DNA of 64,000 nucleotides from Acidimicrobiaceae bacterium (GTDB taxonomy: Bacteria; Actinomycetota; Acidimicrobiia; Acidimicrobiales; UBA8190). The notes below the pieces were generated by a model. The model did no database searches. It was not told the origin of the DNA and saw only the letters and a list, made by a program, of their open reading frames with translations. Position 1 is the first letter of the stretch, and each line of letters begins with the position of its first letter. Location of the stretch: the NCBI GenBank assembly GCA_003151955.1, contig PLZB01000085.1, positions 1-64,000 on the forward strand, given 5' to 3'. The translations under genes were made by a program, and so were the position numbers. Of the stretch, positions 29,799 to 41,277 are shown in pieces.

Positions 29799-30671
29799 TC
29801 AGCCGAACCAGACGCTGCGGCGCTCCCGCAACATGTCGTAGAGGGTCTCCTGGAGCTGCATCCGGACGTTCTCGGCCTCGTCCATGACCCGGCTCTTGGA
29901 GTAGCGCTCCTGGCCGGCGGGGACGTCGAAGGTGATGGGGTCGAGGACCCGGAGCTTGAACTTGGCCGGGAAGTAGAGCAGCGTCCCCAGGGGTCCGAAG
30001 GCCAGCATGTTGGCCGTCACCGGCACGTAGGGAACCCCGAGGGCCCGGGCCACCGAGGGGAGTCGGAAGAGGATCGGCATGGACTCCTCGGCCCCGACCA
30101 CGGCGATGGGGATGACGGGGACCCCGGCCCGCATGGCGATCTCGATGAAGCCACCCCGGCCGAAGCGGCGCAGCCGGTAGCGGTCGGCGTAGGTCTTCGA
30201 AGGTCCCTTGGTGCCCTCGGGGAAGACCAGGGCCAGCTGCCCCTGGTCCCGGAGCAGCCGGAGGGCGTTGTCGGGATGGGCGGTGACCCCGCCACCCCGG
30301 GCCCAGCCCGTCCCCAGCCAGGGGGCGGTCCGGAAGAAGAAGTCGGCCAGCCCGTAGACGGGGCGGCCCAGCTCCTCCTCGATGCCGTGCATGATGACAG
30401 GGGCGTCGGAGGGGATGGCGGCGGCGTGGTTGGAGACCAGGAGGGCGCCGCCGTGGCGGGGGATCTTCTCGAGACCCTCCCATTCGGCACGGAACCAGTG
30501 CTTGTAGATCGGGTTGTAGATCCGGCGGACGAGCTGGCGGGTGTGCTCGGACCGCCCCCATTCGTCGACATCGGACAGCCGGGGGTTGTGGGTGGCCTCG
30601 GGCTCTCGCCGGGGGAGGGGGACGAGCGCGGCGCGCTGGTCCCGGGGGGGTGCTTCCTTGCCGATGGCCAC
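29799..30671 (-). CDS. Lysophospholipid-type acyltransferase (PlsC-like, Rv0502-like)
   Basis: A 290-aa membrane-associated acyltransferase. The acceptor motif is a spaced variant: LLVSNHAAAIPSDAP has seven positions between His and Asp rather than the classical five (HX4D), as I recall for the Rv0502 group, and the second block LALVFPEGTKGPSK is intact. A basic Arg-rich C-terminus follows. GTG 30671 is supported by TACGAT six bases upstream; the longer frame upstream is a shadow of the NlpC gene. Likely operon with the SDR behind it. Confidence 0.82.
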   Translation of the reverse strand: MAIGKEAPPRDQRAALVPLPRREPEATHNPRLSDVDEWGRSEHTRQLVRRIYNPIYKHWFRAEWEGLEKIPRHGGALLVSNHAAAIPSDAPVIMHGIEEELGRPVYGLADFFFRTAPWLGTGWARGGGVTAHPDNALRLLRDQGQLALVFPEGTKGPSKTYADRYRLRRFGRGGFIEIAMRAGVPVIPIAVVGAEESMPILFRLPSVARALGVPYVPVTANMLAFGPLGTLLYFPAKFKLRVLDPITFDVPAGQERYSKSRVMDEAENVRMQLQETLYDMLRERRSVWFG

Positions 30672-32339: not shown

Positions 32340-32413
32340 GGGGGTGTAGCCCAATTGGCAGAGGCAGGGCGCTTAAACCGCCCCCAGTGAGGGTTCGAGC
32401 CCCTCCGCCCCCA
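32340..32413 (+). tRNA. tRNA with anticodon UAA (Leu) but class I variable loop
   Basis: A complete cloverleaf can be drawn: acceptor GGGGGTG/CGCCCCC, D arm with the GG pair at 32357-32358, anticodon stem GGGCG/CGCCC around loop CTTAAAC, T stem GAGGG/CCCTC around TTCGAGC, and discriminator A. The anticodon at 32374-32376 is TAA, which reads Leu UUA, and the loop equals that of Streptomyces bldA. However, the variable region is only CCAGT (5 nt), whereas bacterial tRNA-Leu has a long class II arm. CCA is not encoded. It may be a mis-evolved or specialised tRNA; the charged amino acid is uncertain. Confidence 0.85.
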
Positions 32414-32445
32414 CGGCGTTGCGATCTCGACCACGTTCCCGCAGA

Positions 32446-32547: not shown

Positions 32548-32631
32548 AGTGTGACCAGTTGACCGTGCCCGGCTGAGGGCCCCGCCGGGCTCAGACCTGC
32601 TCTCCGGTCACGGCCCGGCATGAGCCGTTGG

Positions 32632-32660
32632 TTGACATATACCGATAAGCGGTATATACC
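32632..32660 (+). promoter_or_regulatory. padR promoter with overlapping operator
   Basis: TTGACA (32632-32637) and TATACC (32655-32660) are separated by 17 bp, the best promoter in the window. Between and over them lies a perfect inverted repeat ATATACCG-N5-CGGTATAT (32637-32657). A PadR dimer bound here would block RNA polymerase, so autorepression is likely. The -10 ends seven bases before ATG 32668, predicting a leaderless mRNA. Confidence 0.75.
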
Positions 32661-32667
32661 GATGACC

Positions 32668-32997
32668 ATGACGTTAGAGGTCCGGGAGCCGACCTACCTG
32701 GTGCTCACCGCCCTGGCCGAAGGTCGGCTCCACGGCTACGGGGTCATCCAGGAGGTCGAGCGGCTGTCGGGGGGGAAGACGCGGCTCCGGGCCGGGACCC
32801 TCTACGCCGTGCTCGACCGGCTCACCCACGAGGGGGTCATCGAGGTGGCCGGGGAAGAGGTGGTCGAGGGGCGGCTGCGGCGGTACTACCAGCTGACCGG
32901 TGGGGGAGCCACGGCGCTGGCGGTCGAGTCCCGACGGCGGGTAGCCGTCTCGAACGAGGCGCTCCGGCGCCTCCGGGTGGCAGGGAGCTTCGGATGA
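32668..32997 (+). CDS. PadR-family transcriptional regulator
   Basis: A 109-aa winged-helix repressor. The sequence YLVLTALAEGRLHGYGVIQEV and LRAGTLYAVLDRLTHEGVIE is diagnostic of PadR proteins, with the recognition helix in the second segment. ATG 32668 is placed seven bases after the -10; ATG 32662 is an alternative. The third codon is TTA, rare in this DNA and decoded by the unusual tRNA 250 bp upstream. It is coupled to a HAAS-type membrane protein by an ATGA overlap, the standard arrangement for PadR pairs that respond to envelope-active compounds. Confidence 0.92.
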   Translation: MTLEVREPTYLVLTALAEGRLHGYGVIQEVERLSGGKTRLRAGTLYAVLDRLTHEGVIEVAGEEVVEGRLRRYYQLTGGGATALAVESRRRVAVSNEALRRLRVAGSFG

Positions 32998-40470: not shown

Positions 40471-41277
40471 ATGACCTCCGCATCCACCGCCCTCGACGGG
40501 ATCCTCGACGAGCTCGAGCAGGAGCACGCCGAGCTGGACCGCCTCGTGGCCGGTCTCGACGAGGCCGGTTGGGACCTCCCCACCCCGGCCGAGGGCTGGC
40601 AGGTCCGGGACCAGATCAGCCACCTCGCCTTCTTCGACGACACCGCCACCATGGCCCTCACCGACCCCCCCGGCTTCGCCGCCGCCGCCGAGGCGGCCCT
40701 GGCCCGGGCCGGGGACCCCATGCAGGAGCACCTCGACCGGGGCCGGGACATGCCCGGGAAGGACGTCCTCTCCTGGTGGCGGGGGGCCCGGAAGGTGATG
40801 GTGGGGGCGGCCCGCTCGGCCGACCCCGCCGCCCGGGTCCCCTGGTTCGGGCCCCCCATGAGCCTCATGTCCTTCGTCACGGCCCGGCTCATGGAGACCT
40901 GGGCCCACGGCCTCGACGTGGCCGACACCTTCGGGGTCGCTCCGGTCCCCTCGGCCCGGCTCCGCCACGTCGCCTACCTCGGGGTCCGGGCCCGGGACTA
41001 CTCCTACCTGGTCCGGGGCCTCGAGGTCCCGGCCGGGACCGTCCTGGTCGAGCTCACCGCCCCCGACGGGGACCGCTGGAGCTGGGGGGAGGACGGTGGC
41101 GAGCCCGCCGACTCGGTCCGGGGCCCCGCCCTCGACTTCTGCCTGGTCGTGACCCAGCGCCGGCACCTGGCCGACACCGCCCTCGTCGTCGAGGGACCCC
41201 TGGCCACCGAGTGGATGGGGATCGCCCAGGCCTTCGCCGGGGGTCCCGGTCCGGGCCGTCCTCCCCGCCCGGCCTGA
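40471..41277 (+). CDS. DinB-like / mycothiol-dependent maleylpyruvate isomerase-type protein (TIGR03084-like)
   Basis: A 268-aa protein with the MDMPI N-terminal four-helix bundle: LDEAGWDLPTPAEGWQVRDQ, then ISHLAFFD, where His is a metal ligand, and RLMETWAHGLDVADTFG, which supplies another His pair. A C-terminal alpha/beta domain follows. Family members are thiol-dependent (mycothiol) transferases or isomerases, fitting an actinobacterium. The exact substrate is unknown. Confidence 0.85.
   Translation: MTSASTALDGILDELEQEHAELDRLVAGLDEAGWDLPTPAEGWQVRDQISHLAFFDDTATMALTDPPGFAAAAEAALARAGDPMQEHLDRGRDMPGKDVLSWWRGARKVMVGAARSADPAARVPWFGPPMSLMSFVTARLMETWAHGLDVADTFGVAPVPSARLRHVAYLGVRARDYSYLVRGLEVPAGTVLVELTAPDGDRWSWGEDGGEPADSVRGPALDFCLVVTQRRHLADTALVVEGPLATEWMGIAQAFAGGPGPGRPPRPA

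Follow-up and report, generated by a model that had tools for sequence, protein, structure and literature searches.

How is UUA read by a bacterium whose only tRNA with the anticodon UAA lacks the long variable arm of a class II tRNA-Leu? The question is raised by a gene at positions 32340..32413 (plus strand) of the 64,000-nucleotide stretch of Acidimicrobiaceae DNA that was analysed here (the window), for which a first-pass annotation, made from the sequence alone, had described a class I-shaped cloverleaf tRNA with anticodon UAA, discriminator A73 and a variable region of five nucleotides. ARAGORN, Rfam and covariation all agree with that description. In our reading, which we hold with high confidence, the gene is a genuine and working chromosomal tRNA-Leu(UAA) whose long variable arm was lost and which alone decodes UUA in the cell.

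The gene comprises 74 nt without an encoded CCA end and is reported by ARAGORN as tRNA-Leu(taa) at 32340-32414 (+); at 32340-32413 the Rfam tRNA model (RF00005) gives a full, untruncated match (model positions 1-71 of 71, 53 bits against a gathering threshold of 29, E 1.5e-8). The tRNA reads GGGGGUG-UA-GCC-C-AA-UU-GG-CAGA-GGC-A-GGGCG-CU-UAA-AC-CGCCC-CCAG-U-GAGGG-UUCGAGC-CCCUC-CGCCCCC-A, and from direct reading it has an acceptor stem of 7 bp (5' strand GGGGGUG at 32340..32346, seven of seven positions paired with 32406-32412), a D-stem of 3 bp, an anticodon stem and a T-stem of 5 bp each, and A73. The anticodon arm (32367..32383) carries the loop CUUAAAC with the anticodon UAA at 32374..32376, which ARAGORN identifies and which is invariant in the alignment of UAA genes; the T-arm (32389..32405, loop TTCGAGC) is followed by the 3' acceptor strand CGCCCCC with the discriminator (32406..32413), the acceptor/T arrangement being the standard 7/5. 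The variable region CCAGU (32384..32388) ends in U48, the partner of A15 in the Levitt pair. Since it measures 5 nt, and almost all relatives have 4 nt plus U48, where a class II tRNA has at least 10 nt forming an arm, the molecule has a class I shape and is no class II tRNA. The D-arm (32349..32365), on which the first-pass annotation was silent, is nevertheless not that of an ordinary class I tRNA: its loop (AA-UU-GG-CAGA, with A14, A15, G18G19, C20, A20a, G20b and A21) is of the tRNA-Leu type, and the bases 20a and 20b as well as the 3-bp length of the stem (GCC/GGC, followed by C13) are tRNA-Leu traits. Minimum free energy folding of the tRNA (z -1.2) is uninformative taken alone.

DNA matches to the window tRNA at E<=0.001 are present in 47 of 99 relatives, a number that overstates the count of UAA genes because tRNA-Lys(UUU) and short-armed tRNA-Leu(UAG) account for part of the weaker matches. 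The best matches are 86-97% identical over the full length, and the window tRNA is thus no chance cloverleaf. Within the family itself, 14 of 16 further members have a match (the one in G013 is cut by the contig end). When 32 distinct homologues were aligned, drawn from the order, the phylum and phages, 99.9% of the cells were paired and two-sided changes occurred in 16 of 22 pairs, with a covariation score of 0.579 as compared to 0.173 for shuffled and at most 0.163 for slid controls. Two-sided changes back each of the acceptor stem (6 of 7 positions), the anticodon stem (5 of 5 pairs) and the T-stem in the short form, which excludes a hidden long arm; the alternative fold with a long arm that the first-pass annotation had named as a challenge to its own description found no support, both the Rfam model and the covariation fitting the short form. 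In the same 32 homologues the pair A15-U48 is present throughout, and the anticodon, A73 and the core are kept by purifying selection.

The relation to the class II form is close in the core and distant elsewhere. With class II tRNA-Leu(UAA), both of the bldA type of Streptomyces and of other families of the order, the window tRNA has in common the anticodon UAA, A73, A14, A15-U48, G18G19, A20a, the 3-bp D-stem and a similar anticodon loop, whereas it has 5 nt in place of the long arm, A instead of G at position 9, C-G instead of G-C at 12-23, C13 and an unrelated acceptor stem.

The own genome of the window (G000, a draft of 4.57 Mb, 94.7% complete) contains 66 tRNAs. According to ARAGORN its Leu genes outside a tRNA array are those for CAA, CAG, GAG and UAG, four ordinary class II chromosomal genes, and the short UAA gene of the window, the sole UAA tRNA found; the listing of tRNA-Leu genes that the first-pass annotation had proposed thus yielded no class II UAA gene beside the short one. 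The same set of four class II Leu genes (CAA, CAG, GAG and UAG), with class II UAA absent, was obtained for each of three relatives that were inventoried for class II tRNAs (G089, G063 and G141). A pattern for class II tRNA-Leu(UAA) (D-loop GCAGAC or GTAGAC) had no match in 78 genomes with the short UAA form and matched both control genomes; such exclusion tests are pattern-based and may miss a class II gene that has diverged. Group I introns can hide a tRNA-Leu(UAA) gene in other bacteria, and an intron-split class II gene missed by Rfam and ARAGORN was considered as well. Among 24 short-form genomes searched for group I introns, one (G047) had a result above the cut-off and two more had weak ones, with none in G000, and concealment of a class II UAA gene in this way is largely excluded. 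Across the order and the phylum the class I and class II UAA forms replace each other.

The first-pass annotation had linked the tRNA to rare UUA codons in one of its readings, and the codon is indeed very rare: among the predicted genes of the window TTA accounts for 2 of 1,798 Leu codons, on 18,327 codons in all. The tRNA serves a very rare codon in its own genome, as bldA does in Streptomyces. One of the two TTA codons lies near the start of the gene directly downstream of the tRNA, which encodes a PadR-like regulator (32620..32997, plus strand, PF03551), and a bldA-like coupling of the tRNA to this regulator is conceivable from the arrangement.

Could UUA have been reassigned, so that a tRNA with the anticodon UAA would insert another amino acid, for instance Phe or Lys? 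The class I shape, unusual for Leu, and the rarity of the codon, which would ease reassignment, both speak for such a recoding tRNA, as the first-pass annotation had suggested. The meaning of TTA was assessed in relatives, the codon being too rare in G000; it is used freely in G141, G111, G129 and G063. The leuS genes of short-form genomes contain 59 alignable TTA sites, and at all 32 TTA sites that fall in columns at least 70% conserved among the other genomes the residue is Leu (15 of the 32 are from G141 and G063, both among the inventoried relatives). TTA columns behave like those of CTG and unlike those of TTT/TTC (Phe) or ATA/ATC (Ile). By the wobble rules UUA is expected to be read by the anticodon UAA only, as CAA cannot read it. 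With TTA at Leu columns and only one anticodon expected to read it, the short-armed tRNA therefore inserts leucine. Recoding is contradicted in the relatives that have the short UAA tRNA only, and it also fits poorly with the invariant LeuRS determinants described below; we consider it extremely improbable.

How the short tRNA would be charged can be approached from the synthetase. A single LeuRS was found in 59 of 60 genomes, the exception (G040) being a class II genome, and this count revealed no second, dedicated LeuRS in short-form genomes. A73 and U48 are present in 78 of 78 short-armed tRNA-Leu, and A14, A15, G18G19 and A20a in all of them, where for some sequences the latter positions, but not U48 and A73, are partly built into the search pattern or the parser. 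These are the bases that matter in known systems: the determinants of E. coli LeuRS are the discriminator A73, A15-U48, G18G19 and A20a, the sequence and folding of the arm are uncorrelated with leucylation and armless variants are still active, and the human mitochondrial tRNA-Leu(UUR), which is without a long arm, derives its identity essentially from A73 and A14 (PMC9976931). The premise of the first-pass annotation, by which bacterial Leu identity includes the long arm, is accordingly weaker than it was worded, as the E. coli enzyme works without the arm (PMC9976931). We infer, with good support, that the short-armed tRNA is charged by LeuRS. The single enzyme would recognise A73 and the core (U8-A14, A15-U48, G18G19, A20a and the D-loop/T-loop corner), all of which are independent of the arm, and would then attach leucine; the CCA end would be added post-transcriptionally as the gene does not encode it, and U34 would read UUA and probably UUG too.

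When the tRNA class was placed as a label on a LeuRS tree, 4 changes were counted as compared to 15.9 for shuffled labels, and the form is therefore inherited in blocks, yet was switched more than once (the row of G009 in this tree is a long branch, possibly in a wrong reading frame). A LeuRS architecture specific to short-form genomes was considered and rejected, since the short-armed tRNA co-occurs with both LeuRS types and the label merely tracks phylogeny. The single leuS of G000 (C104:39644-42020, locus L140) lies in two frames with a break near 41024, probably an assembly frameshift.

The first-pass annotation had also raised the possibility of a tRNA with a regulatory role or without acylation, in which case a different tRNA would have to read UUA. 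The missing CCA and a scan at the tRNA gene in which no sigma-70 promoter or terminator could be recognised would be in line with it, but many other tRNAs of G000 likewise are without an encoded CCA. Moreover, another UAA tRNA was found neither in G000 nor in any of the 78 short-form genomes, and both the LeuRS determinants and the selection on anticodon, A73 and core point to a decoding tRNA. This reading is very improbable, and we take the gene to be an expressed, decoding tRNA-Leu(UAA).

Short variable loops in a tRNA-Leu are known from a few other systems. Animal mitochondrial tRNA-Leu(UUR) likewise has a short variable loop, reads UUR and is charged by LeuRS mainly via A73 and A14 (PMC9976931). 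It is organellar, with a loose structure and an independent loss of the arm, whereas the bacterial form is a perfect GC-rich cloverleaf with all tertiary pairs. Membership in the mitochondrial group was rejected, as the genome is bacterial and the named match is an Acidimicrobiaceae record; the likeness is by convergence. In Mycobacterium mucogenicum and M. phocaicum a tRNA-Leu(TAG) with a short variable loop was described in a tRNA gene cluster (PMC6582537), but there it is an extra gene beside a normal class II TAG gene, while the window gene is the sole chromosomal UAA isoacceptor. The allo-tRNAs have unusual cloverleaves with 8/4 or 9/3 branches, some of them with Leu anticodons and several charged with Ser (PMC7609411); with its standard 7/5 cloverleaf and Leu determinants the window tRNA is not one of them. 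According to a 2023 review, only animal mitochondria have lost the arm of tRNA-Leu. On loss or replacement of the arm of bacterial tRNA-Leu the open-access literature yielded nothing beyond the mycobacterial report (PMC6582537) and a paper that mentions takeovers by short-armed tRNA structures in general terms (PMC2265525).

The window tRNA is one of a wider family, defined by a D-stem GCC/GGC with C13, a D-loop AA-(1-3 nt)-GG-YAGA, a variable loop of 4 nt plus U48, A73 and an anticodon of the form xAx. These features are found in the window tRNA, in 78 sequences with four anticodons (some positions of the conserved D-arm being part of the search pattern) and in most of at least 88 distinct viral sequences. 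Short-armed tRNA-Leu with the anticodons UAA, UAG, CAA and GAG occur in the order and the phylum, in 76 of 396 genomes of the phylum by a strict pattern, and the cultured species Nocardia farcinica is a named carrier of a short-armed UAA gene. The single-contig genome G022 combines a class II UAA gene with class I CAA and UAG genes. Phages of very different hosts carry the short-armed form as well, annotated merely as tRNA-Leu; viral contigs hold at least 88 distinct short-armed UAA sequences, and among those that were parsed A73 was present in 81 of 81 and U48 in 77. The tRNA-Leu of cyanophage P-RSM6, Rhodococcus phage Trina, Mooglevirus, Pseudomonas phage ZC03 and Vibrio phage phiKT1024 have the same architecture and have in common with the window tRNA the core GCC-C-AA-GG-CAGA-GGC, the variable loop NNAG-U and A73, but they are carried by phages, most often together with further tRNAs, and the hosts possess a tRNA-Leu set of their own. 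That all anticodon versions share the unusual D-stem suggests a single lineage, which 74 nt cannot prove.

Where the gene came from is best judged from its genomic slot. Upstream of the tRNA lie an acyltransferase gene (29802..30578, minus strand, PF01553), which served as synteny marker, and between the two an NlpC/P60 gene (30751..32313, minus strand, PF00877), a neighbour without a part in the function. A homologue of the acyltransferase gene is found upstream of the tRNA gene, oriented as in the window, both with the class I form (G016, G003, G002 and G006) and with the class II tRNA-Leu(UAA) of two genomes of other families (G035 and G090), the protein of G035 being 70% identical over 218 residues. 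The two UAA forms thus share one slot, which suggests a conversion in place. Most likely a class II gene became class I where it stood, as one member of the short-armed family (UAA, UAG, CAA, GAG) that is found across Actinomycetota and in many phages and takes the place of the class II gene. The idea of the first-pass annotation that the tRNA was remoulded from another isoacceptor may hold in detail but is not needed, as the tRNA has the D-loop, A15-U48 and A73 of a tRNA-Leu and its gene is a positional counterpart of the class II UAA gene of other families.

A possible but rather unlikely alternative keeps the function and changes the origin: a phage- or array-borne short-armed tRNA would have displaced the class II gene of the host, as opposed to loss of the arm in place. 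Among phages of E. coli, Pseudomonas, Vibrio, Prochlorococcus, Myxococcus and Rhodococcus, as well as among viral contigs, short-armed tRNA-Leu very like the window tRNA are common, and the shared D-stem points to one lineage; on the other side stand the slot shared by the class I and class II genes in the order, the lack of an integrase beside the gene and a sequence that with 74 nt is too short for a reliable phylogeny. Foreign origin and conversion in place would be compatible with each other under gene conversion or homologous exchange. It is doubtful, though worth stating, whether the short-armed tRNA-Leu form a lineage of their own that arose in phages or was spread by them and repeatedly displaced chromosomal class II UAA, UAG and CAA genes, the loss of the arm maybe being favoured because it would protect the tRNA from factors directed at long-armed tRNAs, such as toxins or anti-phage tRNA nucleases. 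A plasmid origin was rejected, as only two weak matches were obtained in a plasmid collection, one of them on the Nocardia farcinica replicon that bears the short-armed UAA gene.

The interest of the gene lies in a general rule that is broken and not in an exotic function. In a bacterial lineage the decoding of UUA relies on a short-armed tRNA-Leu alone, in a form that stands in for the class II gene in much of the phylum and that is common in phages. This offers a natural test of the dependence on the arm of LeuRS, of discrimination from SerRS, of tRNA-modifying enzymes and of tRNA-targeting toxins, and with the short form present in N. farcinica charging is testable in relatives that grow. 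The case also cautions that an isotype model built on class II tRNA-Leu may flag real decoding tRNAs as doubtful.

Several further observations concern the tRNA-Leu genes of these organisms and their phages. In other Actinomycetota short-armed genes were seen for UAG (L153, L206, L213-L215, L233 and L234), CAA (L208-L212, L225, L227 and L231) and GAG (L228), and in several of these genomes the pattern used detected no class II counterpart with that anticodon. In Mycobacterium phage CicholasNage, without a tRNA annotation, a segment that begins where an annotated HNH endonuclease gene ends (L243, 601-655) is 91% identical to short-armed tRNA-Leu. In G000 itself some 25 divergent tRNA genes of many isotypes, a class II tRNA-Leu(CAG) among them, lie on one strand in an array (C16:40250-43297, locus L056) that resembles those of phages and mobile elements. 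Finally, G020 (C21 and C64; L161, L076, L089 and L090) has three class II tRNA-Leu(UAA) genes, one of which has an enlarged variable arm with a duplicated GCCGAAAGGC unit.
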